Of a stretch of DNA of 64,000 nt, positions 35,916 to 49,267 are shown piece after piece. The translations under genes and the position numbers were made by a program. Each line of letters starts with the position of its first letter. Position 1 is the stretch's first letter. Under the pieces are notes generated by a model, which did not search any database, was not told the origin of the DNA, and worked only from the letters and a program-made list of their open reading frames with translations. The stretch comes from Alphaproteobacteria bacterium (lineage in GTDB: Bacteria; Pseudomonadota; Alphaproteobacteria; Sphingomonadales; Kordiimonadaceae): contig JAJFIS010000019.1 in NCBI GenBank assembly GCA_021774735.1, forward strand, positions 124,001-188,000, written 5' to 3'.

Positions 35916-36848
35916 CTATCTATCGCCGAGGCCGAGTTTGATACAAACATCATCAAGCTGCTCTAACGTGCTGTAATCTACGGTAATATTACCACCTGTA
36001 TCCCCGCGATGGTTTATCGTAACCTTAAGGCCAAGAGCGGCGGACAGGTCTTTCTCCAGCGCCTTAGTATCAGCGTCCTTTTGCTGCGCCTGCGCCTTAA
36101 CTTTTCCCTTGAGTTTAGCAGTGCCTTTGTTGGCCGAAGCTAAAATTTCAGCTTGGCGAACGCTTAAGCCTTTATCGACAATTTCTTTGGCTAAGCGCTC
36201 AGCTTCTGGCAAGCCAATCAATGCCCGCGCATGCCCCATGGATAGCGCACCGGTATCAACCATCGCTTGGACCGCGTCTGGCAAACCAAGAAGGCGCAAA
36301 ATATTAGCAACATGACTGCGGCTTTTACCGACGATTTTTGCCAAAACCTCTTGAGTATGATCAAAATCCTGGATCAGGCGGCTATAACCCCTCGCCTCTT
36401 CAATCGGCGACAGGTCACGGCGTTGAACATTTTCAACAATTGCCACTTCCAGCGCTTCACGGTCATCGATATCCAACACAATAACCGGCACTTCATGCAA
36501 ACCCGCTTGCTGCGCCGCTCGCCAGCGCCGCTCTCCCGCAATAATCTGGTATCTATCTTGCGATAATCGACGCACCAATATGGGTTGCAGTACCCCTTTT
36601 TCTTTGACAGAGCGCGCCAAATCATCCAGTGCCGCTTGATCAAAATGCACTCTCGGTTGACCGTCATAGCGCTCAATGAAGGCGGTGGGTAAAATACTGA
36701 GCCCAGAACCGCTACTGGCTTCGCCACCCGATGCAGAGGCTTGCGTATTGGGCTGGCCAACAATTGCATCCAATTGTGGCTTATCGTCCCCTAACAGGGC
36801 AGAAAGGCCCCGGCCTAAACGTCTTGGTGGTTTTTTTGCTTTGCTCAT
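35916..36848 (-). CDS. parB: chromosome partitioning protein ParB
   Basis: A 310-residue ParB/Spo0J family CTP-dependent clamp with a flexible N-terminus, the GERRWRAA CTP-binding motif, VENVQRRDLSPIEEA, a helix-turn-helix with KSRSHVANILRLLGLP that reads parS, and a C-terminal dimerisation domain. It loads at parS and slides along the origin region. It follows parA in the operon; two parS sites lie 1.5-4 kb away in rsmG and near mnmE. Confidence 0.97.
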   Translation of the reverse strand: MSKAKKPPRRLGRGLSALLGDDKPQLDAIVGQPNTQASASGGEASSGSGLSILPTAFIERYDGQPRVHFDQAALDDLARSVKEKGVLQPILVRRLSQDRYQIIAGERRWRAAQQAGLHEVPVIVLDIDDREALEVAIVENVQRRDLSPIEEARGYSRLIQDFDHTQEVLAKIVGKSRSHVANILRLLGLPDAVQAMVDTGALSMGHARALIGLPEAERLAKEIVDKGLSVRQAEILASANKGTAKLKGKVKAQAQQKDADTKALEKDLSAALGLKVTINHRGDTGGNITVDYSTLEQLDDVCIKLGLGDR

Positions 36849-36884
36849 ATCACACTAACTTATTGATTATAAATGTTAAAATAC

Positions 36885-37664
36885 TTATGCCGCTTTTCTG
36901 CGGTCCCGGCGCAGCAGCTCACCCGCCAAATTAATATAGGCGCGGCTACCCGAGCACCGGTGGTCATAAAGGATCGCCGGAAGGCCGTGGCTCGGCGCTT
37001 CTGACACTCGCACATTGCGCGGAATAACCGTTTTATAAACTTTGTCCCCCAAATAATCTCGTACATCGGCCGCTACTTGGACCGCCAAATTATTGCGCCC
37101 ATCAAACATCGTCAGCACCACACCATTCATCTCAAGGGTTGGGTTGAAAGCGTCTCGAACCCGCTCGATGGTTTTCAGCAACAAGCTTAAACCTTCCAGG
37201 GCAAAAAATTCACACTGCAGAGGCACAAGCACACTATCTGACGCCACCAAGGCATTAATGGTGAGCAGCGAGAGTGATGGCGGACAGTCAATCAAGACAT
37301 AATCATAATTCTTAGCCGCTGGAATTTTCTCGAAAGCTTTTTTCAGCCGGTAATTCCGCTCCGGCAAGTCTGCAAGTTCAAGGTCAGCACCCGACAGGTC
37401 AACCGTACTTGGTACAATATCAAGACCTGGCACCTCGGTCGGTAAGATCGCTGCATCAATGGGCGCAGCCCCTAGCACCACATCATAGGAGGAGATTTCC
37501 CGGTCAGTCCGCTCGATACCAAAACCCGTACTTGCGTTACCTTGAGGGTCTAAATCGATGATCAGAACACGCTTACGGATAGCGGCGATGGCGGTGGCTA
37601 AATTGATCGTCGTTGTAGTTTTACCCACCCCACCTTTTTGGTTCGCGACAGAAATTATTTGCAT
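36885..37664 (-). CDS. parA: chromosome partitioning ATPase ParA
   Basis: A 259-residue ParA/MinD-type ATPase with the deviant Walker A KGGVGKTTTT at 10-19, DLDPQGNASTG and DCPPSLSLLT. It forms the nucleoid-bound gradient that pulls ParB-origin complexes apart. I start at ATG 37664, with AAAGGCGG upstream; the frame extends eight codons further to a TTG that is less likely. Order rsmG-parA-parB is standard. Confidence 0.96.
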   Translation of the reverse strand: MQIISVANQKGGVGKTTTTINLATAIAAIRKRVLIIDLDPQGNASTGFGIERTDREISSYDVVLGAAPIDAAILPTEVPGLDIVPSTVDLSGADLELADLPERNYRLKKAFEKIPAAKNYDYVLIDCPPSLSLLTINALVASDSVLVPLQCEFFALEGLSLLLKTIERVRDAFNPTLEMNGVVLTMFDGRNNLAVQVAADVRDYLGDKVYKTVIPRNVRVSEAPSHGLPAILYDHRCSGSRAYINLAGELLRRDRRKAA

Positions 37665-37784
37665 AAATCCGCCTTTCCCGTCGCCCAAAGAGCTTTACCC
37701 GTTCCCAATTGTGACAAAACCATCTCCCTCTAAACCAACCTTTTAAGCGTAATGCTTAAAACAACCTATACCGCTTTGATTTTA

Positions 37785-38423
37785 TTATCTTTTATTATGT
37801 TCAATTTTTTTAACTTCCCTCAGATGCAAGATCACTCCTCTGGGATCCGTCTGACTTGGGTAGCGGTTAACAGTCATACTCCATGATCGTTTGGCTTCGG
37901 TCAATTCCTCATCGGCCTTTTCACCTTTTAAAAACCAATAGCTACCATTCTCCGCCAGAAGTGGTGCCCCCCAGGTCAGCAATTGGCCCAGTGTGGCACA
38001 GGCGCGGGACATAATTATATCCGCTTTTACGTCTTTTATGTCTTCGACTCGGCGATTATCAATCTCAACATCCACCCCCGCTGCGAGCGAAGCAGCGCGC
38101 ATGAAGGCGCATTTACGGCCATTTGCCTCGATGAGGCGCAGATTACCGACCCCCATAATGGCCAGAACCAACCCGGGAAAGCCAGCACCTGCGCCAATAT
38201 CGGCAATTTTTGGAAATTTCTCTGTCTCTTTTTCTCGAATCAACACTGCTAACTGCGCTGAATCTAACATATGCCGCCGCCACACATCATCCAGCGAGGA
38301 TGTCGCTACTAAGTTTTTAGCTGATTGCCATTTGATGAGCGTATCTGCATAGGCTTGCAGCTGCGCCATTGTTTCACGTGAAACACCTGTGTCTCGGGCA
38401 AAGTCCAATGCGGTATAAGCCAC
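37785..38423 (-). CDS. rsmG: 16S rRNA (guanine527-N7)-methyltransferase
   Basis: A 212-residue RsmG (GidB) with the SAM-binding motif DIGAGAGFPG near 76 and LIEANGRKCAF. It methylates G527 of 16S rRNA. Its start codon GTG follows the mnmG stop codon directly, so it is translationally coupled. The first codons contain a perfect parS site, which forces the residues VSRET at about 14-18. Confidence 0.95.
   Translation of the reverse strand: MAYTALDFARDTGVSRETMAQLQAYADTLIKWQSAKNLVATSSLDDVWRRHMLDSAQLAVLIREKETEKFPKIADIGAGAGFPGLVLAIMGVGNLRLIEANGRKCAFMRAASLAAGVDVEIDNRRVEDIKDVKADIIMSRACATLGQLLTWGAPLLAENGSYWFLKGEKADEELTEAKRSWSMTVNRYPSQTDPRGVILHLREVKKIEHNKR
38370..38385. promoter_or_regulatory. parS site 1 (inside rsmG)
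   Basis: TGTTTCACGTGAAACA, a perfect 16-bp palindrome identical to the ParB-binding consensus. It lies in the 5' part of rsmG, about 10 kb from the proposed oriC. The parABS system marks and segregates the origin region. Confidence 0.95.
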
Positions 38424-40337
38424 TCACCCACCCCTACGGCTAGTTTGTGCGCTTTGATTGCCCTCACGCTGCCGCTTTCCTTTTTTAATCAAGGCAAGCA
38501 AAATGGTAAGGGATGCAGGTGTTACCCCCGCTATGCGCGAGGCCGCCCCCAAAGTTGAAGGGCGCGCTGCCTCAAATTTTTCCCGCAGCTCATGGGATAG
38601 TCCTGCCACAACAGAAAAGTCTAAATCTGATGGAATAATAAGCGCCTCATCCTTGCGAAACGCCGCTATATCAGCGGCTTGACGCTCTAAATAAGTAGCA
38701 TAAAGCGCGTCAATTTCAAGCTGAGATGCGGTCACCTCTGTGATGTTTGATAGCGCATCAGGCCAAGTTTTTTGCAAGTCTGAAAAGTTAATATCACTGA
38801 ACCCAAGTAAGGTGCGAGCGCTTCTACGTACCCCATCTTGTTTAATCTTCAGCCCTTTCTTCAAAGCCTCATTAGGGGTCAGTGTCAGGCTATCCAGTAA
38901 GGCATTACCAGCCTTTAACGCCGCCATCTTACATGCAAAGGCCTCTACCCTCGCTTGGCCAACCGCGCCAATATCGATCCCTTTTTGGGTCAAGCGCTGG
39001 TCTGCATTGTCCGCCCGCAGCGTTAAGCGATATTCCGCCCGGCTGGTAAACATCCGGTAAGGCTCTTTCGTGCCTTGGGTAACCAGATCATCGATCATCA
39101 CCCCCATATAAGCATCAGCCCGGTCAAGAACAAACAGCGGTTTGCCACCAGCAGCCAGTGCCGCGTTGAAGCCCGCTAGCAACCCTTGGGCTGCAGCTTC
39201 CTCATAACCCGTTGTGCCATTGATCTGACCCGCAAGATAAAGCCCTGAAACCCGCCGTGTCTCTAAGGTTGGTCGCAGCTCTCTCGGGTCGATAAAATCA
39301 TACTCAATCGCGTAACCAGGCTGCAGAATAACAGCTTTCTCAAGCCCGGGAATGGTGTGGATAAAGGCTTCTTGAACATCCCCAGGCAGGCTTGTTGAAA
39401 TACCATTTGGGTAAACCGTATGGTCGTCCAAGCCCTCAGGTTCCAAGAAAATTTGATGGTTATCTTTGTCGGCAAAACGGACAATTTTATCTTCCACAGA
39501 AGGACAATAGCGCGGACCCGTACCTTCTATCTGACCACTATATAGCGGCGAGAGCTGGATATTATCGCGGATGATCCTGTGAGTCGCAGCAGTGGTGCGC
39601 GTCATGTAACAGCTTATTTGCGGCACCTTAATTTCGTCGGTCATGAAACTGAAAGGCACTGGGTCCGCGTCCCCTGCTTGCTCCTCACATGCTGCCCAGT
39701 TTATCGTGCGGCCATCAAGCCGGGCGGGCGTACCCGTTTTCAGGCGGCCAAGCTCAAAGCCTTGCGCCATCAAAGTTTCAGATAGTCCAATAGCGGGCGC
39801 ATCACCGACCCTGCCTGCCGGTATCTGCTCGGCCCCAATATGAATAAGACCACGCAGGAAGGTACCGGTAGTAAGAATAACCCTATCCGCCGTGTAGTGT
39901 GTGCCATCTCCGCAGATAACGCCTTGAACCTGAGGGGCTTTATCGTCATTTTGCGCCAGAATTAAATCTTCAACACCTCCCGCAACCACGGTTAAGTTAG
40001 GATAATTTAAGATGATACCCTGCATCGCCTCCCGGTAAAGGCGGCGGTCGCTTTGACAGCGTGGACCCTGAACTGCAGGCCCTTTACGGCGATTGAGCAA
40101 ACGAAACTGTATGCCCGAGGCATCCGCCACCCGTCCCATAATGCCGTCTAGAGCGTCAATTTCCCGCACCAGATGGCCCTTACCAAGCCCACCAATGGCA
40201 GGATTGCAGGACATTTCACCAATGGTTTCAATCTTATGAGTGACCAACAATGTATTGGCACCTAGACGCGCTGAAGCCGCCGCAGCCTCACAGCCCGCGT
40301 GTCCCGCTCCAATAACAATGACATCAAACTCTGCCAT
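38424..40337 (-). CDS. mnmG: tRNA uridine-5-carboxymethylaminomethyl modification enzyme MnmG
   Basis: A 637-residue FAD protein (GidA) with [10 protein letters not shown] at 11-20, [21 protein letters not shown], and the catalytic-cysteine region [17 protein letters not shown]. The C-terminal domain binds MnmE. Together they modify the wobble uridine of several tRNAs. ATG 40337 (MAEFDVI) is chosen; the frame goes eight codons further to a TTG with poorer context. It is followed without gap by rsmG. Confidence 0.97.
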
Positions 40338-40434: not shown

Positions 40435-40450
40435 TGTTTCACGTGGAACA
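40435..40450. promoter_or_regulatory. parS site 2 (mnmE-mnmG spacer)
   Basis: TGTTTCACGTGGAACA, matching parS with one change in the right arm; the reverse complement is the form used by B. subtilis Spo0J. It starts two bases after the mnmE stop codon and is about 8 kb from the proposed oriC. Confidence 0.9.
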
Positions 40451-46972: not shown

Positions 46973-48004
46973 TCAGCGTCTATAAGCTTTAATATGGGCT
47001 GAAAGTGCAGCTACATGGTCAACCGGGGTCTCGGGTACAAAACCATGGCCTAAGTTAAAAATATGTGCGCCCTTGCTAAAACCATCTAATATTCTACTGG
47101 TCTCGCTCAGCATTGCAGGCCCACCTGCTACGACCATTCTTGGATCCAAATTACCTTGAACGGGTATTTTCGTCTGAATGGTATCTGCGGCCCAAGATAT
47201 TGGTACACCGCTATCCAATGATACCGCATCAACGCCAGTTTCACAGACATATTTCTCCAGCATCATGCCAGCAAGCCGTGGGAAACCAATGATCGGAGTT
47301 TCGCTATGTTTTAAGCGTAGGCGGCGAACAATTTCACGAGTTGGTTCAATAACCCAGCGATCAAAAGCTGGTTCAGGCAAGGCCGCTGACCAACTATCGA
47401 ATATTTGAACCACATCAGCGCCGGCATCAATTTGGCTAATCAGATAGTGACTAGTGGCATCAACCAATAGCGATAAAAGACTGTCGAAACCCTCAGGATC
47501 ACCATAACCCCAATCTTTTGCAGCACCGTGGTCTTTGCTGCCTGCACCTTCAACCATATAAGTTGCCACGGTCCAAGGGGCCCCTGCAAAGCCAATCAGA
47601 GTTTTATCGTCAGGTAATTGATCTTTTAAAATTTGTACCGTCCGGTAAATACTCCCCGCTTTATCGTCAAAGTTTGCCAAATTTAAGCTTTGTAACTCTG
47701 TAACGCTTTTTATTGGCTCTAACCGTGGGCCTACACCACCCTCAAACCATGTTTTTTGGCCTAGTGCATCTGGTACTACCAAAATATCGGCGAATAAAAT
47801 GGCACCATCCATATCAAAGCGTTTGATAGGCTGCAGGGTTACCTTGGCTGCTTTATCTGGTGAATAGCAAAAGTTTAAAAAACTGGATGTGGTGGCTCGA
47901 ACTTGTTTATATTCACTTAAGTAGCGTCCAGCTTGTCGCATAAACCAAAAAGGTACATTGTTTCCAGGGTTACCCTTGAGGGTTTCTAATAATGGTTTTG
48001 TCAT
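46973..48004 (-). CDS. hemE: uroporphyrinogen decarboxylase
   Basis: A 343-residue HemE with the characteristic PFWFMRQAGRYLSEYK, CYSPDKAAKVTLQP, FAGAPWTVATYMVEG and GNLDPR. It decarboxylates uroporphyrinogen III to coproporphyrinogen III. I choose ATG 48004; a TTG nine codons upstream is a weaker start. It is transcribed away from the putative origin and heads the hemE-hemJ-rho segment. Confidence 0.97.
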   Translation of the reverse strand: MTKPLLETLKGNPGNNVPFWFMRQAGRYLSEYKQVRATTSSFLNFCYSPDKAAKVTLQPIKRFDMDGAILFADILVVPDALGQKTWFEGGVGPRLEPIKSVTELQSLNLANFDDKAGSIYRTVQILKDQLPDDKTLIGFAGAPWTVATYMVEGAGSKDHGAAKDWGYGDPEGFDSLLSLLVDATSHYLISQIDAGADVVQIFDSWSAALPEPAFDRWVIEPTREIVRRLRLKHSETPIIGFPRLAGMMLEKYVCETGVDAVSLDSGVPISWAADTIQTKIPVQGNLDPRMVVAGGPAMLSETSRILDGFSKGAHIFNLGHGFVPETPVDHVAALSAHIKAYRR

Positions 48005-48111
48005 AAATATTCTTACTTGAGATAAGCGCAAATGGGTGAACTAATTACCAGACCTCTATACTAAATAATATTAAATAAAAAGGTAGTTGTTGTAGTAGGG
48101 CCTGTGAATTG

Positions 48112-48132
48112 TGGGGATAATTGTTATCCACA
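48112..48132. promoter_or_regulatory. inverted DnaA box pair
   Basis: TGGGGATAA and TTATCCACA on opposite sides of a 3-base spacer form a near-palindrome. The right half is the perfect DnaA consensus; the left half is TTATCCCCA on the minus strand, containing the TCCCCA core reported for weak Caulobacter DnaA boxes. This is the densest DnaA site in the proposed origin. Confidence 0.8.
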
Positions 48133-48400
48133 GAGTTACGCACAAAAACAAAAGAATAATTTTGATGCCCTTAAAAACCCGTCAAGCCCTGTATTTCTTT
48201 GGGGGCAACCTATGAAAAGATAGAAATTAAAAAGGTGAAAAGCGGGGATAAGTTAAAAAAACACTTGTTTTCAGTTTTTTTCGGCCCAGAGTCGTCCTCG
48301 TGATTGACGGGTGTGGATTAAATCAGCACCCTTGTGCAGCGATATTGCATTATGAGCATAAAGTGAGGACATGAGTTTGGTCCCCTTGATTAAACAGTAG

Positions 48401-48409
48401 TTATCCACA
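48401..48409 (+). promoter_or_regulatory. DnaA box overlapping the PPSR ribosome site
   Basis: TTATCCACA, a perfect box, ends 9 bases before the start codon of the PPSR gene and shares its last base with the AGGG ribosome site (48409-48412). Confidence 0.8.
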
Positions 48410-48418
48410 GGGTTATTT

Positions 48419-49267
48419 ATGACGCCAATTTCAAATTCTAGTGCCTATCATATCCATATGGTTTCAGATTCTACCGGTGAAACACTTGAAAGCATCGCCA
48501 ATGCAGCGCTGGTGCAATTTAATGGCAGCGATATTATTAAACACTTTTGGCCGATGATTCGTAATGCTCGGCAGATGAAACGGGTGATGCAGGATATCGC
48601 CGAACATCCCGGCTTGGTGATGTATACCTTAGTGGATAAAGAAATTCGCACTGTTTTGGAAGAAAAATGCGAGCGCTTGGGCCTGTCTGTTTTACCAGTT
48701 CTTGACCCGGTGATTTCATTACTTGGAAGCTATCTTGGTCGGACAGCAACTGCGCTGCCAGGGCGCCAACATGCGCTTAATAAAGATTATTTTGCCCGCA
48801 TTGATGCGCTTCATTTTACCATGGCCCACGATGACGGCCAGCTAAGCGATGATCTGTCAGAAGCGGATATAATTCTTATCGGGGTCTCGCGGTCATCTAA
48901 AACACCAACCAGTATCTATCTTGCCAACAAGGGCTATAAAACCGCCAATGTTCCTTTTGTGCCAAACTGTCCCATGCCGGCATATTTAACCCGATTAAAG
49001 ACCCAATTTGTGATGGGGTTAATGACAAGCCCGGATCGGTTGGTTGAAATTAGAACCAATCGGCTTCGTTCCCTTAAAGAAGATGAAATATCGGCCTATA
49101 CCGAGCTTAATGAAATTCGCAATGAAGTTCAGCAGTGTCGGCGTTACTGTGCTGATAATAATTGGCCTGTGATTGATGTGACCCGGCGCTCGATTGAGGA
49201 AACAGCTGCGGCCATTATCAATAAATATCATGGGTGGGAAGAAGCAGGGAGGACCAACGATGGCTAG
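48419..49267 (+). CDS. PPDK/PEP-synthase regulatory protein (DUF299)
   Basis: A 282-residue bifunctional kinase/pyrophosphorylase family protein with the P-loop-like GVSRSSKTPTSIYLA near residue 152 and a conserved N-terminal HMVSDSTGETLE. It switches pyruvate phosphate dikinase or PEP synthase on and off by reversible threonine phosphorylation. It is first in the right-hand origin operon, directly downstream of the proposed oriC. The maf start overlaps its stop by 8 bp. Confidence 0.93.
   Translation: MTPISNSSAYHIHMVSDSTGETLESIANAALVQFNGSDIIKHFWPMIRNARQMKRVMQDIAEHPGLVMYTLVDKEIRTVLEEKCERLGLSVLPVLDPVISLLGSYLGRTATALPGRQHALNKDYFARIDALHFTMAHDDGQLSDDLSEADIILIGVSRSSKTPTSIYLANKGYKTANVPFVPNCPMPAYLTRLKTQFVMGLMTSPDRLVEIRTNRLRSLKEDEISAYTELNEIRNEVQQCRRYCADNNWPVIDVTRRSIEETAAAIINKYHGWEEAGRTNDG

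Follow-up and report, generated by a model that had tools for sequence, protein, structure and literature searches.

The question raised by this locus is whether the spacer between two divergently transcribed genes, hemE and the PPSR gene, is the place where replication of the chromosome starts. The DNA analysed here (a 64-kb stretch, hereafter the window) belongs to the 2.78 Mb draft genome of a Kordiimonadales bacterium, assembled in 51 contigs. Skew, a cluster of DnaA boxes and the conservation of the spacer in related genomes were all checked, and together they uphold a preliminary description that had proposed a chromosome origin between hemE and PPSR. From its sequence, the spacer is almost certainly the single chromosomal oriC of this bacterium, of the hemE-linked alphaproteobacterial type. 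This would fix the origin for a genus of which the source genome is the sole member among the genomes searched, in an order where our literature search found no described replication origin, either for Kordiimonas or for the order itself. A hemE-linked oriC is an ordinary, known kind of origin; what is added here is a conserved unwinding core and a question about the trinucleotide repeat that it contains.

The spacer and its neighbourhood

The gene order around the spacer is gidB-mnmG-mnmE-rho-hemJ-like-hemE / PPSR-maf-aroE-coaE-dnaQ, and thus contains the hemE/COG1806 boundary that was reported for the Caulobacter crescentus origin, Cori (PMC1914354). The same hemE/PPSR arrangement is present in the Kordiimonadales loci compared, and the best identity of the PPSR protein (66%) is to Kordiimonas species. 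Reading frames and Pfam matches place the two flanking genes on opposite strands, as first described, with an upstream TTG at 48031 as a possible alternative hemE start (Table 1). AT-rich stretches had also been described in the spacer. Its GC content is 0.374, compared with 0.489 for the window as a whole, and its most AT-rich part is 48036-48090. No structured RNA was found in the window with Rfam, and no plasmid-borne relatives of the spacer were found. A 28-bp segment elsewhere in the genome (G000:C44:38567-38594) is 93% identical to window positions 47870-47897, inside hemE, which is likely a chance match.

Table 1. Position of the predicted origin, its sequence elements and its neighbours (window coordinates).
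Feature	Position	Strand	Remarks
parB + parA	35916..37688	-	ORFs; Pfam ParB_N/HTH_ParB and AAA_31
parS TGTTTCACGTGAAACA	38370..38385		Exact 16-mer; 9.6 kb from spacer
parS	40435..40450		One mismatch; 7.6 kb from spacer
hemE (uroporphyrinogen decarboxylase)	46973..48004	-	Left flank; ORF; Pfam URO-D 358.9 bits
Predicted oriC (hemE-PPSR spacer)	48005..48418		414 bases; from skew minimum, DnaA box cluster, conservation
AT-rich stretch, likely duplex unwinding element	48054..48081		AT-rich in every aligned relative
DnaA-trio-like array TAG TTG TTG TAG TAG	48084..48098	+	Five units; 13 bp from 48112 box
GC spacer GGCC	48099..48102		Between trios and boxes; from sequence
Weak tandem DnaA box CAATTCACA	48103..48111	-	Three mismatches; complement within near-invariant CTGTGAA motif
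DnaA box TTATCCCCA	48112..48120	-	One mismatch; anchor of unwinding core
DnaA box TTATCCACA	48124..48132	+	Exact; inverted partner of 48112 box
Weak box TTACGCACA	48136..48144	+	Column pattern conserved
Weak box TTATCCCCG	48243..48251	-	Box-like site in same place in most relatives
GANTC site	48289..48293		Possible CcrM methylation
DnaA box TAATCCACA	48312..48320	-	One mismatch; box-like in relatives
Weak box TTATGCTCA	48353..48361	-	Aligns with TTACCCCCA-like sites of relatives
DnaA box TTATCCACA	48401..48409	+	Exact; adjoins PPSR; almost invariant in family
PPSR gene (Kinase-PPPase, COG1806/DUF299)	48419..49267	+	Right flank; ORF; Pfam 316.6 bits

The two perfect and two near DnaA boxes of the preliminary description, and its inverted box pair, were all recovered in the spacer (Table 1). 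These four boxes of at most one mismatch compare with 0.08 expected from base-shuffled spacers. On the 280 kb of its contig the spacer is the 420-bp stretch richest in such boxes, and every other stretch, those overlapping the spacer set aside, holds two at most. The whole genome contains 40 exact boxes, of which the pair in the spacer are the only two that lie within 1 kb of each other. The exact box TTATCCACA is also over-represented in the genome as a whole, beyond the origin, since a reversed control pattern occurs only 15 times.

Two parS sites lie near parAB at close to the 8-10 kb first stated (Table 1). An exact DnaA box (39356-39364, minus strand) is located inside mnmG, between the two sites; DnaA of Caulobacter has been reported to act at parS (PMC6399470).

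Compared with Cori, taken here from its published description, the spacer shares the hemE and COG1806 flanks, the AT richness, multiple strong and weak DnaA boxes, with weak ones of the TCCCCA type among them, and a parS about 8 kb away (PMC1914354, PMC4285127, PMC6399470). The match to the Caulobacter hemE-linked origin that had been drawn at first sight holds for the flanks, the box cluster, the AT richness and, as detailed below, the skew minimum. It differs from Cori in its strong box (TTATCCACA here, TGATCCACA in Cori) and in the absence of CtrA sites, as no full site (TTAA-N7-TTAA) was found in 26 aligned spacers vs five in Cori (PMC4285127). The origins proposed for Rickettsia prowazekii and Wolbachia on the strength of boundary genes and DnaA boxes (PMC1914354) likewise have hemE at one flank; however, these predictions lean on CtrA and IHF sites, unlike ours, and Wolbachia is without the COG1806 neighbour seen here.

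GANTC sites are about seven times denser in the 26 spacers (4.6 per kb) than in the window (0.6 per kb), where they are four times rarer than expected (39 observed vs 158), and the GcrA gene is present in the genome. Given this enrichment, the GcrA gene and the lack of CtrA sites, a methylation-linked control of the origin is plausible, and a CtrA control of the Caulobacter kind is less plausible. The origin spacer of Kordiimonas laminariae holds 13 GANTC sites in 427 bp.

GC skew and the dnaA alternative

Skew was computed on two contigs of the draft genome, the one that carries the spacer (C11) and the one that carries dnaA (C15), and, for relatives, on sampled parts of their sequences. The preliminary description had made the origin depend on a cumulative GC skew minimum at the spacer and nowhere else. 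On the 280 kb of C11 the minimum falls at window position 47815, 0.2 kb from the spacer, with the skew rising afterwards, and a GT-minus-AC walk reaches its minimum at 47818. The two complete relatives sampled around the circle (G007 and G020) each show a single minus-to-plus switch, and it is found at the same hemE-PPSR spacer. The local minimum is inside the spacer in G007 (1,039,152); in G020 (549,449) it lies at the hemE end, 0.25 kb away from the core.

One could argue that the real origin lies at dnaA, as in Bacillus, and that the hemE spacer is a mere promoter region regulated by DnaA, given that DnaA boxes occur at promoters too and that the sequences of four complete relatives (G008, G009, G020 and contig 1 of G028) start at dnaA. 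The latter is an assembly convention, and the skew of the dnaA contig tells against such an origin, as it declines steadily over 218 kb, passing through dnaA without any lasting switch there. Boxes of at most one mismatch are also absent within 9 kb upstream of dnaA and 6 kb beyond, and the switch of the relatives is off dnaA by 0.14 Mb in G007 and 0.55 Mb in G020. An origin at dnaA was thus rejected for want of a lasting switch and of nearby boxes, and we consider it extremely improbable. The skew minimum at the spacer, together with the steady fall through dnaA, instead points to an origin at the spacer. Assemblies differ in their starting point: that of G020 was rotated to a dnaA start though its skew places the origin at hemE-PPSR, whereas that of G037 starts at PPSR, that is, at the origin.

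A conserved core and its spread in Alphaproteobacteria

The alignment of the 26 spacers, nearly all of them from Kordiimonadaceae, defines a core at 48062-48133 that is the most conserved part of the spacer, the boxes not being equally conserved. The core consists, in order, of AT-rich DNA, a trinucleotide array, GGCC, two tandem minus boxes and an inverted plus box. Within the CTGTGAA motif that covers the weaker tandem box, each column of TGTG is conserved in 25-26 of the 26 sequences. The combination of a one-mismatch box with at least three such repeats is the only one of its kind in the window.

This layout matches that of the B. subtilis basal unwinding system (BUS), where the better of two tandem boxes is further away from the trios (10-13 bp) and a GC spacer averages 4 bp (PMC8287927). 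Here too a better box, a weaker tandem box, a GC spacer of about 4 bp, a trinucleotide array and AT-rich DNA follow each other in the same orientation, and the box-to-array distance of 13 bp is alike. Of the criteria by which a BUS is searched, a box of at most two mismatches within 16 bp of the array is present (48112, minus strand, one mismatch, 13 bp), whereas at least three consecutive trios with a central adenine are absent, as the array, read from the box, is 3'-GAT GAT GTT GTT GAT-5' and has just two consecutive central-A trios. The repeat is rather 3'-GNT-5'. The strict rule of three or more NAN was dropped, since it overlooks the window's conserved core and selects a site that is not conserved. 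Tandem TAG repeats in the unwinding element are also found in the Thermotoga maritima eTrio (PMC10316083), although with another type of DnaA box and another neighbourhood.

From the sequence of the core we infer how initiation may proceed. DnaA would bind the strong boxes (48124, 48401, 48112 and 48312) first and then the weaker ones; a filament would grow from the tandem minus boxes (48103-48120) toward hemE, across the GC spacer, until it reaches the plus strand of the array. The AT-rich stretch would then be opened and the helicase loaded there, two forks would leave, and the neighbouring parS/ParAB system would segregate the copies.

Is the core restricted to the Kordiimonadaceae? A calibrated sequence model of it retrieves the spacer as the best match in its own genome (57.3 bits, the next being 17.8), and with a nucleotide profile 25 of the 78 spacers that were scored beyond those used for training (with one locus present twice) exceed 10 bits, as does no shuffled sequence. 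Among 31 sampled alphaproteobacterial genomes, including our own, with a core match at E <=0.01 and a PPSR gene, all but one (G149) have their best match upstream of PPSR, at a distance of 231-496 bp and with the same orientation. A rigid core pattern with exact spacing and at most two mismatches gave only two hits in 385 genomes, of which the one in G066 falls in the hemE-PPSR spacer. The profile search shows that such a pattern is too strict as a class-wide test. At the sequence level, the core is common to much of the Alphaproteobacteria.

A second objection is that the boxes regulate the transcription of hemE and PPSR and are unrelated to replication. The two genes are divergent and share the spacer, and the Caulobacter DnaA is a transcription factor too (PMC6399470). 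However, sigma-70-like promoter matches in the spacer amount to a single weak one, no more than chance, and the core coincides with the skew minimum. The core also persists where the genes were not found: in 12 examined genomes with a core but no PPSR hit, it is beside hemE in seven, next to rho in three and elsewhere in two. Neither hemE nor PPSR was found in the three rho-adjacent genomes, and in two of them a reading of the ORFs places maf and aroE on the other side. The position adjacent to rho and maf is the ancestral place of the core, and its retention there despite the loss of neighbours fits an origin and not a mere promoter region, so that a purely transcriptional role is very hard to credit. 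As an oriC element, the class-wide core could help to find origins in draft genomes of Alphaproteobacteria, also where hemE and PPSR have been lost.

Departures from the common arrangement were also seen. A set of Sphingomonadales spacers (L035-L065) has another box geometry, with a plus box at about 183, a minus box 12 bp beyond it, and a run of GTT GTT GTT closer to hemE. In family f5, the DnaA proteins of three genomes (G028, G034 and G040) score far below those of the rest of the order, and no core hit was obtained in G028 and G040; the family possibly has a diverged origin-initiator pair. Good core matches outside the hemE/rho/maf cluster were found in G168 and G171 (loci L257 and L260), in the latter beside an enoyl-ACP-reductase-like gene, and these are possibly relocated origins in reduced genomes.

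The GNT repeat and the DnaA residue

The five units of the array in the 26 spacers give 130 cells, in which T occupies the 5' position in 118 and G the 3' position in 106, while the middle base is A in 50, T in 51, G in 29 and C in none. The difference in constraint between outer and middle bases is significant (Fisher p <1e-11), with the reservation that the sequences are related and not independent. At the corresponding place, other alphaproteobacteria carry runs of GTT or GGT.

In B. subtilis, Asn187 of DnaA contacts the central A, and initiation suffers when this base is replaced by T or G (PMC10721633); that study also remarks that DnaA homologs may differ in how they recognise trios. Unlike the B. 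subtilis protein, our DnaA, aligned to the solved structure (8btg), has a phenylalanine (Phe222) at the Asn187 position. In a sample of 59 loci, a few of which could not be extracted, every alphaproteobacterial DnaA read has Tyr, Phe or Leu at this position, and none has Asn. The variable central base agrees with this residue change, to which it could be causally tied. We tentatively suggest, at somewhat less than even confidence, that the DnaA-trio of alphaproteobacterial origins is a variant, 3'-GNT-5', constrained at its outer G and T and not at the central A, and that a DnaA carrying Tyr, Phe or Leu at the Asn187 position captures single-stranded DNA independently of the central base. The main weaknesses of this suggestion are phylogenetic non-independence and the choices made in alignment.

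The variability of the middle base, set against a B. subtilis DnaA that reads a central A, could also mean that the array is not a single-strand DnaA site but AT-rich or bendable DNA, retained because it makes the duplex flexible or serves another protein. This is a less likely explanation, given that the array has a three-base periodicity, stands at a set distance from a DnaA box and in a set orientation to it, and recurs class-wide, including as pure GTT or GGT arrays, and that DnaA differs at exactly the residue that reads the central base. If the variant-trio reading is true, the published search rule for a central A would overlook this class's unwinding site or put it in the wrong position, and a GNT repeat that works as a trio would offer a direct test of how far the B. 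subtilis base-capture model reaches in other bacteria.
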